Both the position numbers and the translations under genes were made by a program. From contig NZ_GL379770.1 in the NCBI RefSeq assembly GCF_000143765.1, forward strand, positions 1,886,903 through 1,950,902: a DNA stretch of 64,000 nucleotides, read 5' to 3'. This DNA comes from Sphingobacterium spiritivorum ATCC 33861 (GTDB taxonomy: Bacteria > Bacteroidota > Bacteroidia > Sphingobacteriales > Sphingobacteriaceae). The notes beneath the pieces were generated by a model that saw nothing but the letters and a program-made list of their open reading frames with translations, searched no databases and was not told the origin of the DNA. Positions 46,389 to 52,106 of the stretch are shown here, piece after piece (position 1 is the stretch's first letter; each line of letters starts with the position of its first letter).

Positions 46389-47528
46389 ATGAAACCAAAT
46401 TTCATCCGTTCCCTTATTTTTTCATCTCTGGCAATTGTGCTTTATTCCTGCCAGGAATCCCAGTCATCTGAATCATCAAAAGATGAAATCTCCGTTATTC
46501 CCACAACAACCGTCATTCGTCTGGATACCACCATTACACAAGATTATGTAACAGATATACAAGCCGTCAAAAATGTAGAGTTACGTTCCCGCCTGAATGG
46601 TTTTCTGGAAAAAATATATGTAGATGAAGGTGATTTTGTCCGGAAAGGGCAAATATTATTCACTCTCAATGCAGAAGAATTCCGCACGGAATTAGCTAAG
46701 GCTAATGCGATGCTTAATAATGCTATTGCTGATGCAAAAAAAGCAAGTCTTGAAGCTGATCAGACCCGAATATTATTGCAAAAAAATATTATTTCCAAAA
46801 CTGAAATGGATCTGGCAAAAGCGAAACTACAGGCTGCTGAATCTAAAATAGATGAGGCCAGATCCCTGGTTCAGTTTGCAAAAACAAGACTTAATCAATG
46901 TTCGATACGTGCACCTTTTGATGGTAATATAGACCGTATATTACTAAGAGAAGGTTCGTTACTTACAGAAGGATCTCTGCTGACAACCATCTCAGACAAT
47001 AAACAGGTATATGCTTATTTCGATATTACTGAACAGCAATTTTTGACTATGGCAGCAGACAGCAGCAGCAGTAATACGTTCAAAACTCCTGTTCAGCTCA
47101 CATTAGCGAATGGTGAAATCTATCCTTTATCAGGAGTAGCAGAACTTGCTGAAACAGAATTCAATAATGAAACCGGTACAATTTCACTACGTGCAAAATT
47201 TTCGAATCCGAATAAGACGCTTCGTCATGGTGCATCCGGAAATATCAACTTTCCTATCAGGATGGATAATATAATAGCCGTTCACCAAAAGGCTGTATTT
47301 GAAATTCAGGACCGCACTTTTGTGTACACTGTTGGCAAGGACAATACCATCAAAATGACCTCTTTTATTCCCGGTCCGCGTATCGGACATTACTATGTCG
47401 TTACTTCCGGATTAGATCAGGATCAACAGGTAGTCTATGAAGGTACACAAGGTCTCAAAGACGGAAGTATCATTCAGCCACAACTTATCTCAGAAGAAAA
47501 AAACAAATTAGCTCATAACCTTCAATAA
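46389..47528 (+). CDS. RND efflux periplasmic adaptor lipoprotein (membrane-fusion protein)
   Basis: 379 residues. The lipoprotein signal ends in VLYSCQES (Cys near 19). The HlyD/AcrA order follows: the first lipoyl half with VELRSRLNGFLEKIYVDEGDFVRKGQ, an alpha hairpin (about 100-160), the second lipoyl half with CSIRAPFDGNIDRILLREGS, and beta-barrel and membrane-proximal domains. It links the inner-membrane pump to the outer-membrane factor in a tripartite drug-efflux system. It ends 12 bases before the fused pump gene. Confidence 0.93.
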   Translation: MKPNFIRSLIFSSLAIVLYSCQESQSSESSKDEISVIPTTTVIRLDTTITQDYVTDIQAVKNVELRSRLNGFLEKIYVDEGDFVRKGQILFTLNAEEFRTELAKANAMLNNAIADAKKASLEADQTRILLQKNIISKTEMDLAKAKLQAAESKIDEARSLVQFAKTRLNQCSIRAPFDGNIDRILLREGSLLTEGSLLTTISDNKQVYAYFDITEQQFLTMAADSSSSNTFKTPVQLTLANGEIYPLSGVAELAETEFNNETGTISLRAKFSNPNKTLRHGASGNINFPIRMDNIIAVHQKAVFEIQDRTFVYTVGKDNTIKMTSFIPGPRIGHYYVVTSGLDQDQQVVYEGTQGLKDGSIIQPQLISEEKNKLAHNLQ

Positions 47529-47540
47529 TAGCTTGTAAAG

Positions 47541-50500
47541 ATGTTTGATATATTCATTAAGCGGCCGATACTATCCCTTGTCATATCGGTATTCATTACC
47601 TTATTGGGATTATTATCCCTGTTTACATTACCCGTTACCCAATTTCCGGATATTGTACCTCCTTCTGTCGTGGTCACAGCCAATTATACCGGAGCCAATG
47701 CAGAGGTAAGTACCAATGCCGTAGCTATTCCTCTTGAAAAAGCTATTAACGGTGTGGCAGGAATGACTTCCATGTCTACTGTCAGTACCAACAATGGAAA
47801 TACATTGATACAGATCTTTTTTAAAGTAGGTACAGATCCTGATATTGCTGCAGTAAACGTGCAAAACCGTGTGACTACGGTATTGGATGAATTGCCTGAA
47901 GAAGTTATTAAAGCAGGTGTGACAACAGAAAAGGAAGTCAACAGTATGCTTATGTACCTCAATATTTTTAGTGAGGATAAAAATGCAGACGAAAGATTTA
48001 TATATAACTTCACAGATATCAATATTTTAAAAGAGCTGAAGCGTATAGAAGGTGTAGGCTTTGCGCAGATTATGGGGATGCGTGACTATGCCATGCGTAT
48101 CTGGCTCAAACCTGATCGTTTGGCGGCTTATAGCATCAGCACGGATGAAGTTATCCAATCATTACGTTCACAAAATATTGAAGCTGCTCCGGGACAGACA
48201 GGTATCGGGTCTGACAAAGTAGTGAATATGCAGCAGTATGTACTGCGCTATACCGGAAAATTCACGGAAGCATCCGAATATGAGAATATTCCGATCAGGG
48301 CAAATGCCGATGGTTCAATACTTCGTATCAAAGACATTGCGACATTGGAATTCGGATCTCTGGATTACGAAATGGTTTCTAAAACAGACGGGCGTCCTTC
48401 TGCATCCATTATGATGAAACAGCTTCCCGGATCTAATGCTCAGGATGTTATCAATAATGTGAAGAAACGTATGGCTGAACTAAAGGAAAGCAGTTTTCCT
48501 CCGGGTATGACGTATACGATGGGTTATGATGTTTCCAGATTTCTGGATGCTTCTATCAGCAGCGTTATTACAACTTTAATCGAAGCATTCCTGCTTGTTT
48601 TTCTCGTTGTATTTATTTTCCTTCAGGATTTCAGATCTACTCTTATACCTGCTCTGGCAGTTCCGGTTTGTCTCATCGGAGCCTTATTCTTTATGCAGAT
48701 GCTGGGATTCTCCATCAATCTCCTTACCCTGTTTGCACTTGTACTTGCAATTGGTATTGTTGTCGATAATGCGATCGTCGTCGTAGAGGCGGTATATGCC
48801 AAAATGGAAGATGATGAGACCCTGACCCCTCGTGAAGCAACATTTGCGGCTATGAAAGAAGTGGGATCAGCTATTATTGCGATTACACTCGTTATGTCTG
48901 CCGTATTTATACCTGTAGCGTTTCTCTCCGGTCCTGTGGGTATATTCTACCGTCAGTTTTCATTGACACTGGCATCTGCTATCGTGATTTCAGGAATCAA
49001 TGCCCTTACACTAACACCTGCACTATGTGCCCTTATGCTCAAATCACCACACGGCAAAGAAAAGAAGAATAACCTTTTGAACCGTTTTTTCAATGGTTTT
49101 AATAAATGGTACAACAACACTTCCGGAAAATATGCTGTCATTGTCCGCACCATTGCCAGCAGAAGAGTCATCACCACCGGACTACTCATTATATCATTTG
49201 TCGCTACCTTGGGAATGAGCAGTATTCTTCCGGGAGGATTTATCCCTACGGAAGATCAAGGTATGATCTATGTCAATGTCACGACGCCTCCGGGAGCAAC
49301 TGTCGACCGTACAGAAGCCGTCATGAATGAAATTGACCGGGTGAGCAGAGAACTCAAACCTGTAGAAACAGTTTCTACATTATCCGGTTACAGCCTAGTG
49401 AATGAAGTCTCAGGCTCATCCTACGGAATGGGGATGATCAATCTGACCAGCTGGTCAGACCGTGAACAGAATGTATGGCAGATAATTGAAGAACTCAAAA
49501 CGAAAACAAAGCATATCAAGGATGCGGAAATTGAGTTCTTCCCTCCCCCTACAGTTCCGGGATTCGGAAATTCATCGGGTTTTGAACTTCGTGTACTGGA
49601 TCGTTCCGGTAAAGATGATCTGACAGCGTTCTCCAAAGTATTGGAAACATTTATGGAAGACCTCAAGAATACACCTGAAGTAGGCAATGTATTCACATCT
49701 TTCGAAACCAATTTCCCTCAATATATGCTCCATATAGATTATGATCTGGCAGCAAAAAAAGGTATATCGGTCGAAAATTCCATGAACACCCTGCAGACTT
49801 TAATGGGAAGTTTCTACGCGACCAACTTTATTCGCTATGGACAAATGTACAAAGTAATGGTACAGGCGGACGCTATGTATCGCCAGAAGCCGGAAGATGT
49901 TCTCAAACTGTTTGTGAAAAATGATAAAGGAGAAATGGTTCCGTTTTCTGCTTTTATGCGTATGCAAAGAGTATACGGTCCTGAACAGATCACACGCTAT
50001 AATATGTTTGCTTCAGCAATGCTGAATGGCGATCCTGCAGATGGATACAGCTCGGGACAAGTGATTAGTGCAATAGAACGTGTTGCGAAAGAAAAGCTGC
50101 CGGCCGGTTATACTTTTGAATGGTCAGGTATGACCAAAGAGCAGAAAGCTTCCGGCAATCAGGCTGTTTATATCTTTGGAATCTGTCTTCTGTTTGTATA
50201 CTTGCTGTTATGTGCTCAATACGAGAGCTTCCTGTTGCCGCTCCCGGTCTTGTTCTCCTTGCCTGCCGGAATCTTTGGTGCTTTTCTTTTCCTCAAGGTA
50301 TTTGGGCTGGAGAACAATATTTACGCGCAGGTAGCATTAGTCATGCTCATTGGATTGTTGGGTAAAAATGCTATTTTGATTATTGAATATGCTGTGATCA
50401 AACACAAGCAGGGACTCTCCGTTATAGAAGCGGCTATTGAAGCTGCTGTTATGCGTCTGCGCCCTATCCTGATGACTTCATTTGCATTTGCCGCTGGTCT

Positions 50501-52106
50501 GGTCCCGCTTGCTATGGCCTCAGGTGCCGGAGCCTTAGGTAACCGTTCTATCGGATTGGCTGCATTGGGCGGAATGCTTATCGGTACCATATTCGGGGTT
50601 CTGATCATTCCCGGATTGTATGTATTGTTTAATGCAGATGGCAAAAAAGACAGGAAAAAGACAAGTAGAAAAATAGTCGAACCTGTCGCCGGAATAATCC
50701 TGATATTAGTCCTGTTCTCCGCCTGTAAAGTTCGCTCTGATGTAAGAGACAGTTATATTCCTTCCAAAATACCGGTTGCGGATACAGCTGCAATAGACAG
50801 TGCCTTTATTCATAATTTACACTGGAATACATTTTTCAAAGATGAAAATCTGAAACAGCTTATCGATACAGCTCTGGTACGTAGTCCTGATCTTGGAGAG
50901 GCGCTGGAACGTATCGAATTCAGCAAGACAAAATTACGCTTGCGTAAGGGAGAGCAACTGCCACAGGTAGATGCCGTTATCGAAGGAAGTTTAAGCCGCT
51001 TTGGCGACTACACGATAGATGGAACAGGTATATTTGATCAGAATCTGTCCGATAATATTTCCGGAAAGAAAGTAATTCCTAATCCTGTCCCCGATTATTT
51101 CATTGGTATACGTTCGGTATGGGAACTGGATATCTGGGGAAAATTGCGAAATCTTAAGAATGCAGCTCTACACGAATATTTAGCAAGCTATGAAGGTAGA
51201 AAGCTTGTTCAGTCCGAACTGGTAACTTCTATTGCAACACGATATTATGACCTGGTAGCTTTGGATGCCGAGCAGATTGCTATTCAGGAAAATATAAAAC
51301 TTCAGTCCAAAAGTCTGGAGATTATGGAAGTGATGAAAAAGGCAGGCACGGCGAATTCACTCAGTGTCAGCCAATTTCAGGCAGCCTTATTACAAGCTAA
51401 AGCCCGGGAGAAAAAGGGTTTGCAACAAATACGGGAGATCGAAAATGAGATTAATTACCTGATCGGACGTTTTAACGGGGAGATTACCCGCACACCCCTG
51501 ACCGCTCATGATAGTCCTGTATTTTCCAATATCAAACCAGAGCATGCCGATCAGTTACTGGCTTCAAGACCGGACATCAGACAGGCCGGATTAAAGCTGA
51601 TTGCTGCAGGCTTGGAAACGGATGCAGCTAAAGCTAATCTGTATCCGTCACTGGTACTTGCGCCTCAATTGGGACTCAACTCCTTCCGCATTGAAAAATT
51701 ACTGTCGTCCTCTTCACTGGCTTACAGTCTGATCGGAGGGCTATCCGGTCCCATCCTGAACCGTACAGCGCTGAATGCCACATATGACCAGTATAAAGCT
51801 AACTATGGAATTCAATTCTATCAATATGAAAAGACTGTTCTTAAAGCCTGGCAGGAACTTTACAGCCAACTGGAGGTGCAGGACTATGCACGCGAAAGAC
51901 AGGACATGCTTAGTAAACAAGTCGATGTACTGAATGAAGCAGCACAGGTATCGAATGACCTGTTTATAGCCGGTCGTGCAACTTATCTGGATATATTGAG
52001 CGCACAAAAGTCTGCGCTTGAAGCCAGTATAGATAAAATTGAGAGCCGAAAAGAAAATATACTTATTCAACTGAACATTTATAAAGCACTCGGTGGAGGC
52101 TGGTAA
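47541..52106 (+). CDS. Natural fusion: RND (HAE1-type) efflux pump with C-terminal outer-membrane factor
   Basis: 1521 residues in one uninterrupted frame. Residues 1 to about 1035 are a full RND pump: MFDIFIKRPILSLVI, two sets of helices, two large periplasmic loops, Asp in GIVVDNAIVVVEAV and Lys in GLLGKNAILIIEYA. AcrB has a second Asp where this has Asn. Residues about 1040-1063 are a basic stretch (KKDRKKTSRK), a hydrophobic segment and FSAC with Cys1062, i.e. a complete lipoprotein signal. Residues 1062-1521 are a NodT-type outer-membrane factor with LLASRPDIRQAG and late coiled-coil repeats. No ATG occurs at the junction. Cleavage by signal peptidase II could yield two proteins. The adaptor gene is just upstream. 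Confidence 0.93.
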   Translation: MFDIFIKRPILSLVISVFITLLGLLSLFTLPVTQFPDIVPPSVVVTANYTGANAEVSTNAVAIPLEKAINGVAGMTSMSTVSTNNGNTLIQIFFKVGTDPDIAAVNVQNRVTTVLDELPEEVIKAGVTTEKEVNSMLMYLNIFSEDKNADERFIYNFTDINILKELKRIEGVGFAQIMGMRDYAMRIWLKPDRLAAYSISTDEVIQSLRSQNIEAAPGQTGIGSDKVVNMQQYVLRYTGKFTEASEYENIPIRANADGSILRIKDIATLEFGSLDYEMVSKTDGRPSASIMMKQLPGSNAQDVINNVKKRMAELKESSFPPGMTYTMGYDVSRFLDASISSVITTLIEAFLLVFLVVFIFLQDFRSTLIPALAVPVCLIGALFFMQMLGFSINLLTLFALVLAIGIVVDNAIVVVEAVYAKMEDDETLTPREATFAAMKEVGSAIIAITLVMSAVFIPVAFLSGPVGIFYRQFSLTLASAIVISGINALTLTPALCALMLKSPHGKEKKNNLLNRFFNGFNKWYNNTSGKYAVIVRTIASRRVITTGLLIISFVATLGMSSILPGGFIPTEDQGMIYVNVTTPPGATVDRTEAVMNEIDRVSRELKPVETVSTLSGYSLVNEVSGSSYGMGMINLTSWSDREQNVWQIIEELKTKTKHIKDAEIEFFPPPTVPGFGNSSGFELRVLDRSGKDDLTAFSKVLETFMEDLKNTPEVGNVFTSFETNFPQYMLHIDYDLAAKKGISVENSMNTLQTLMGSFYATNFIRYGQMYKVMVQADAMYRQKPEDVLKLFVKNDKGEMVPFSAFMRMQRVYGPEQITRYNMFASAMLNGDPADGYSSGQVISAIERVAKEKLPAGYTFEWSGMTKEQKASGNQAVYIFGICLLFVYLLLCAQYESFLLPLPVLFSLPAGIFGAFLFLKVFGLENNIYAQVALVMLIGLLGKNAILIIEYAVIKHKQGLSVIEAAIEAAVMRLRPILMTSFAFAAGLVPLAMASGAGALGNRSIGLAALGGMLIGTIFGVLIIPGLYVLFNADGKKDRKKTSRKIVEPVAGIILILVLFSACKVRSDVRDSYIPSKIPVADTAAIDSAFIHNLHWNTFFKDENLKQLIDTALVRSPDLGEALERIEFSKTKLRLRKGEQLPQVDAVIEGSLSRFGDYTIDGTGIFDQNLSDNISGKKVIPNPVPDYFIGIRSVWELDIWGKLRNLKNAALHEYLASYEGRKLVQSELVTSIATRYYDLVALDAEQIAIQENIKLQSKSLEIMEVMKKAGTANSLSVSQFQAALLQAKAREKKGLQQIREIENEINYLIGRFNGEITRTPLTAHDSPVFSNIKPEHADQLLASRPDIRQAGLKLIAAGLETDAAKANLYPSLVLAPQLGLNSFRIEKLLSSSSLAYSLIGGLSGPILNRTALNATYDQYKANYGIQFYQYEKTVLKAWQELYSQLEVQDYARERQDMLSKQVDVLNEAAQVSNDLFIAGRATYLDILSAQKSALEASIDKIESRKENILIQLNIYKALGGGW

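Follow-up and report, generated by a model that had tools for sequence, protein, structure and literature searches.

The subject of this analysis is a stretch of 64,000 nucleotides from Sphingobacterium spiritivorum ATCC 33861 (hereafter the window), in which a single uninterrupted open frame of 1,521 amino acids (positions 47541..52106, + strand, ATG to stop) encodes both a resistance-nodulation-division (RND) efflux pump and an outer-membrane factor (OMF). Its product is probably a polyprotein cut by the signal peptidases of the host, from which a lipidated OMF would be released while the pump would keep the signal as a thirteenth transmembrane helix. The comparison of related fusions supports the proposal of the initial annotation that an internal lipoprotein signal would restart export and that signal peptidase II (SPase II, Lsp) would release a lipidated OMF. 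The evidence lies in a junction cysteine that is invariant amid drifting sequence, in the presence of the arrangement in separate pump lineages, and in a lineage devoid of that cysteine which carries a site of the signal peptidase I (SPase I, Lep) type.

Two proteins and a putative signal in one frame

The pump occupies residues 1-1030 (47541..50630, + strand) and is assigned by Pfam and NCBIfam profiles: ACR_tran covers these same residues, and the cut-off of the NCBIfam model for HAE1-type permeases, TIGR00915, is passed with 1047 bits against 940.35 over residues 1-1034. The score for the HAE1 subfamily RND_permease_1 (NF000282), 1175 bits, lies below its cut-off of 1250, and the pump is not filed under that subfamily. 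The OMF is of NodT type and corresponds to residues 1062-1521 (50724..52103, + strand), which are predicted to be the mature lipidated product. This half exceeds the cut-off of the NCBIfam model TIGR01845 (233 versus 210.05 bits, residues 1062-1520), Pfam places OEP on the fused protein in two stretches, the best being 1104-1309, and in a structural model of residues 1015-1521 (mean pLDDT 76.7, with very low confidence over most of 1061-1088) an OMF fold follows the junction. Foldseek matched the OMF half to OprM (1wp1, E 1.7e-20), to OprN and to palmitoylated OprM. With both family cut-offs passed, the frame does contain a full HAE1 pump and a full NodT OMF, as had been claimed. The calculated masses are 167.8 kDa for the whole chain, 116.4 kDa for residues 1-1061 and 51.5 kDa for residues 1062-1521.

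The nearest of the genomes compared, G001, carries the same frame, free of stops and 99% identical. This frame rules out a sequencing error that would hide a stop and a separate start at the junction, a danger of which the initial annotation had warned; together with the fused homologues of other genomes of the genus, it also disposes of a gene-calling artefact.

The two halves meet at residues 1035-1062, KKDRKKTSRKIVEPVAGIILILVLFSAC. The basic n-region KKDRKKTSRK (residues 1035-1044, 50643..50672, + strand), which would be cytoplasmic, is followed by the hydrophobic core of the putative internal signal (residues 1045-1058, 50673..50714, + strand), read from the sequence and from a low-confidence helix in the model, and by the lipobox FSAC (residues 1059-1062, 50715..50726, + strand). 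From sequence and conservation, Lsp is predicted to cut just before Cys1062 (codon 50724-50726), which is the sole cysteine of the OMF half. The join has the n-region, core and FSAC motif that had been described for it, and with them the anatomy of a bacterial lipoprotein signal, that is, of a substrate for Lgt and Lsp as judged by sequence.

Conservation at the junction

Fused relatives were collected with words from residues 1020-1521 and with targets of 0.55-1.75 times the whole length, which gave 111 fused proteins, all of them used. The search was repeated with P0108 as the seed (610 fused proteins, of which 120 among those listed were used) and with P0109 (190 fused proteins, again 120 among those listed). 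Five proteins of the first search were reassigned to their proper groups, and the comparison comprised 347 fused proteins, including the query, from three pump lineages and with many near-duplicates. Set A (the query and 106 others) is mostly of Bacteroidota type, with a few others such as P0105-P0107. The 120 members of set B bear names that are mostly Verrucomicrobia, Pedosphaera or Limisphaerales, with one Candidatus Acidoferrum, and the 120 of set C are MdtC-type pumps whose names include Syntrophus, Thermodesulfobacteriota and Steroidobacteraceae. The fused architecture is visible in the database names themselves, some sources using HAE1 family protein/NodT family OMF. The statement that fused RND-OMF proteins exist in Bacteroidota is correct for that phylum and too narrow in range, Verrucomicrobiota and MdtC-type lineages having them as well. 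Clustering at 72% pump identity reduced 329 length-filtered fused pumps (loci included) to 37 clusters, with set B in one of them. Four entries of set C (P0316, P0322, P0329 and P0332) have no recognisable motif of transmembrane helix 12 (TM12) ahead of the signal and may be database artefacts.

A lipobox-type cysteine precedes the OMF in all 107 proteins of set A, with Ser (68), Gly (26), Ala (12) or Gln (1) at position -1, and in 120/120 of set C (Gly 83, Ala 21, Ser 15, Asp 1; four junctions doubtful). Of the residues of the window protein, Ala at -1 is found in 12/107 proteins of set A and Phe at -3 in 14/107. In set B a lipobox was found in 0/120, four members having a junction cysteine outside the lipobox position. 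What precedes the mature OMF there is an SPase I-like [ASVTGP]-x-A site, present in 115/120 (A-x-A in 96, [SVTGP]-x-A in 19) and replaced by other residues in the remaining five, and the -1 residue is Ala in 117 proteins and Gly in 3. At least two Lys or Arg lie ahead of the core in 346/346 matches, with a net charge as low as -1 in single cases. The length of the linker is highly variable among the fusions. In P0020 and P0023, Asp/Gly-rich inserts of about 30 residues follow the last pump helix and precede the internal signal; inserts of this type are what an unfolded cytoplasmic n-region would tolerate.

Conservation within set A was followed in 90 sequences (P0001-P0098, at least 1,480 aa) by counting changes on a tree built from the pump halves only. 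Cys1062 underwent no change, all other scored columns from 1042 to 1077 underwent 16-44, and the cysteine is one of 41 unchanging columns out of 483. In 99 sequences of set B, the Ala at -1 changed twice, position -3 changed 14 times and position -2 changed 45 times; the -3 residue is Ala in 82/99 and Val or Thr in most of the others. The hallmark of an SPase I site is a small residue at both -1 and -3 and freedom at -2. A chance lipobox is ruled out, given that the cysteine is invariant amid drifting residues and is found again in other lineages. Judged by these comparisons, the conserved element is the cleavage site, not the linker, and two lineages have each preserved their own cleavage chemistry at one and the same position. 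On the tree of 70 pumps described below, P0106, which has a lipobox, adjoins L090, which lacks one.

The main rival is a chain that is never cut, whose signal would be a permanent thirteenth helix and whose OMF would remain attached to the pump; Cys1062 might in that case carry its lipid at the inner membrane. Such a chain is unlikely, and several observations do speak for it and against cleavage. A signal profile trained on 41 signals of split OMFs was scored on the 90 fused proteins and gave the junction a median of 5.1 (range -3.0 to 14.2, n=90), compared with a median of -6.6 (maximum 2.2, n=346) for windows before other cysteines of the same pumps. The best window of the pump half beats the junction in 86/90 proteins, the junction being higher in just 4/90; the profile cannot tell a signal from a transmembrane helix, and by its score the junction is indistinguishable from one. 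The helix of the internal signal is modelled with low confidence. The uncharged stretch before the cysteine has a median of 14 residues in set A (31 for TM12) and 17 in set C; that of set B is long, with a median of 27, a length compatible with an uncut anchor there. Unusual residues occupy the cleavage position in P0092 (Gln at -1), P0240 (Asp at -1) and 5/120 proteins of set B. Moreover, a cysteine that is lipidated without cleavage would likewise be conserved. What a mere anchor does not need is the pattern of set B, in which -1 and -3 stay small and -2 varies freely in proteins that have no lipobox.

Geometry bears on the same question. For MexAB-OprM (PMC4754349), the distance between the membranes is given as 23 nm, the reach of MexB as 7 nm, the periplasmic part of OprM as 10 nm and the gap between pump and OMF as about 6 nm. 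In the window protein there are 33-40 residues from Cys1062 to the first OMF helices, and by our estimate these span at most about 12-14 nm when extended. Because of this limit an uncut chain could hardly serve normal assembly, an argument that is supportive of cleavage and not decisive.

Apart from cleavage, a free OMF could be made separately by internal initiation of translation, the fused product being minor or unused. The nearest candidate is the TTG of residue 1029, where TM12 ends, and it could in principle start a signal-bearing OMF; an in-frame ATG occurs in the linker or signal of loci L002, L003 and L006, and most set B loci have an ATG at the end of TM12. In the window frame, as had been stated of its junction, in-frame ATG codons are absent between residues 1012 and 1262, and none of ATG, GTG and TTG occurs between 1029 and 1134. 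Since no such codon separates the end of TM12 from the signal, internal initiation is unlikely in the window. In addition, no Met was found from the end of TM12 to about 10 aa before the cysteine in 75/107 proteins of set A and 73/120 of set C, counts made at the protein level, where in-frame GTG and TTG are invisible. Start codons are not conserved at the junction, whereas the cleavage residues are. Internal initiation may occur in some relatives; as the explanation of the fusion it is very improbable.

Fused and split pumps

A fused homologue is present in 11 of 12 genomes compared within the genus (G001 included), with 65-99% identity. The twelfth, G004, has none at the threshold used, and it is among the two smallest (3.1 Mb). 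In nine other genomes of the genus (L003-L011) the fused proteins are 75-89% identical to fusions named Sphingobacterium, which makes this the probable genus of G001 and its relatives. With 68-69% identity to Pedobacter fusions, the window protein is closer to these than to those named Sphingobacterium, and the window gene, L001 and L002 are all closer to fusions of Pedobacter or Parapedobacter. For this reason the fused genes of the genus are termed here homologues and not orthologues; the window gene may represent a separate subclade or an acquired copy. Compared with the window protein, the pump halves of L002-L011 are 77-84% identical and the OMF halves just 39-55%. As read from these identities, the two halves of a single polypeptide evolve at very different rates.

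It is very doubtful that the fusion arose by an accidental joining of genes and is either without function or simply tolerated. The fused state is uncommon, since only 2/76 strong OMF matches in 198 Bacteroidota genomes lie in a fused frame, both in the genus of the window. Joining would also be an easy accident: in 8/46 split pairs (L093, L094, L095, L096, L104, L105, L106 and L118) the downstream OMF shares the reading frame of the pump, with stops between. An accident is nevertheless hard to reconcile with its presence in 11/12 genomes of the genus, with OMF halves that have diverged to such low identity while both halves remain open, and with a cysteine that is unchanged in 90 sequences.

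Homologues in which the junction is split into two genes, the search for which had been proposed at the outset, do exist, and nearly all have a free-standing lipobox signal on the OMF. Among 46 split OMFs from loci of the phylum of G001 (the locus of 45 also containing the pump gene), a lipobox was recognised in 40 by pattern and in 5 by eye, the latter having an aromatic -3 residue or a truncated start; the remaining one, L144, has no cysteine. Among split loci of Verrucomicrobiota, L029 has an OMF signal of the SPase I type that ends in STAFA before GILTVGPDY, a mature start like that of set B, and L031 has an OMF with a lipobox. Since split relatives show matching lipobox or SPase I-type signals, the fusions seem to retain the original signal of the OMF.

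The relation between fused and split pumps was examined on quick trees without bootstrap. A tree of 70 pumps, from which P0322, P0324, P0332, P0339 and L019 (cut by the end of its contig) were omitted, required at least 10 changes of the fused/split label, all forced by starred branches, the mean for shuffled labels being 22.5. A tree of 43 HAE1 pump rows under a mixture model, which contains three long branches (AcrB, P0105 and P0107), gave 8 label changes. A single clade of five Bacteroidota-type and five Verrucomicrobiota fusions was rejected (p-AU 0.0023), the choice of rows having been made with the first tree already in view. A change of label can mean that a fusion was gained or that one was lost, so that the trees do not fix the count of fusion events, and the MdtC-type part, with just two split rows (from E. 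coli), allows no count of its own to be derived. As far as these trees go, a single origin of the fusion without later splits does not fit.

Proposed maturation and its meaning

The fused gene is preceded by that of a periplasmic adaptor (an RND membrane-fusion protein; 46389..47528, + strand; TIGR01730, 234 bits, cut-off 94.9), which has its own N-terminal lipobox-type signal (...LYSC) and ends 12 nt upstream. In the proposed maturation, the pump would be inserted in the membrane by 12 helices, its C-terminus lying in the cytoplasm. Together, the basic linker and the hydrophobic core would next serve as an internal lipoprotein signal for the Sec pathway, in N-in/C-out orientation, by which the OMF segment would be passed to the periplasm. 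Lgt would modify Cys1062 and Lsp would cut before it, sending a lipidated OMF of about 51 kDa to the outer membrane, and the pump of about 116 kDa would retain the signal as a thirteenth helix unless trimmed. One translation event would thus yield one pump and one OMF, which would assemble with the upstream adaptor. Assembled pumps have a 3:3 ratio of pump to OMF, which is matched by a 1:1 output. The scheme of SPase II and a lipid applies to the window and to the groups with a lipobox and does not extend to set B, where the enzyme is probably Lep and the OMF would carry no lipid.

Split HAE1 RND operons with a lipoprotein OMF, of the kind of MexAB-OprM and MexEF-OprN, have the same parts in the same order (adaptor, pump, OMF), and the window proteins resemble them in passing the family cut-offs, in an OMF model like OprM and OprN and in the same kind of OMF signal. 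In the window, by contrast, a single chain comprises pump and OMF, the signal of the latter is internal, and an extra helix would remain on the pump. The other RND-OMF fusions of the databases have the same architecture, and the window gene is one of them; sequence comparison adds to what is known of those fusions a pattern of conservation and a division into two cleavage classes. A precedent exists in FbcH, the cytochrome b/c1 precursor of Bradyrhizobium, in which a polytopic membrane protein with an internal signal is cut into two subunits; the cut is made by SPase I and both products stay in the inner membrane. Like FbcH, the window gene is a single open frame in which a polytopic part is followed by an internal signal and then by a second subunit. 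It differs in that the enzyme of the RND-OMF fusions would be mainly SPase II and one product is predicted for the outer membrane; cleavage is here inferred from conservation alone. No paper on an RND-OMF fusion with an internal signal or on its processing was recognised in the open-licence literature searched, which is weak evidence of novelty.

A broader proposition is also fairly probable, namely that RND-OMF polyproteins are a recurrent design across phyla, with ordinary signal peptidases serving as polyprotein proteases. The fusions would have kept the cleavage class of their OMF, SPase II in the Bacteroidota-type and MdtC-type lineages and SPase I in the Verrucomicrobiota lineage; pump and channel would always be born 1:1, and the thirteenth helix would be the former signal peptide of the channel. 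If true, bacteria have repeatedly set the stoichiometry of pump and channel by way of one chain split by Lsp or Lep, and these chains are natural polyproteins whose parts end in two different membranes. Lgt and Lsp would then be able to act on a signal behind 12 helices, and a testable relic helix would be left on the pump. Moreover, these bacteria would need signal peptidase activity for their entire efflux system to mature.

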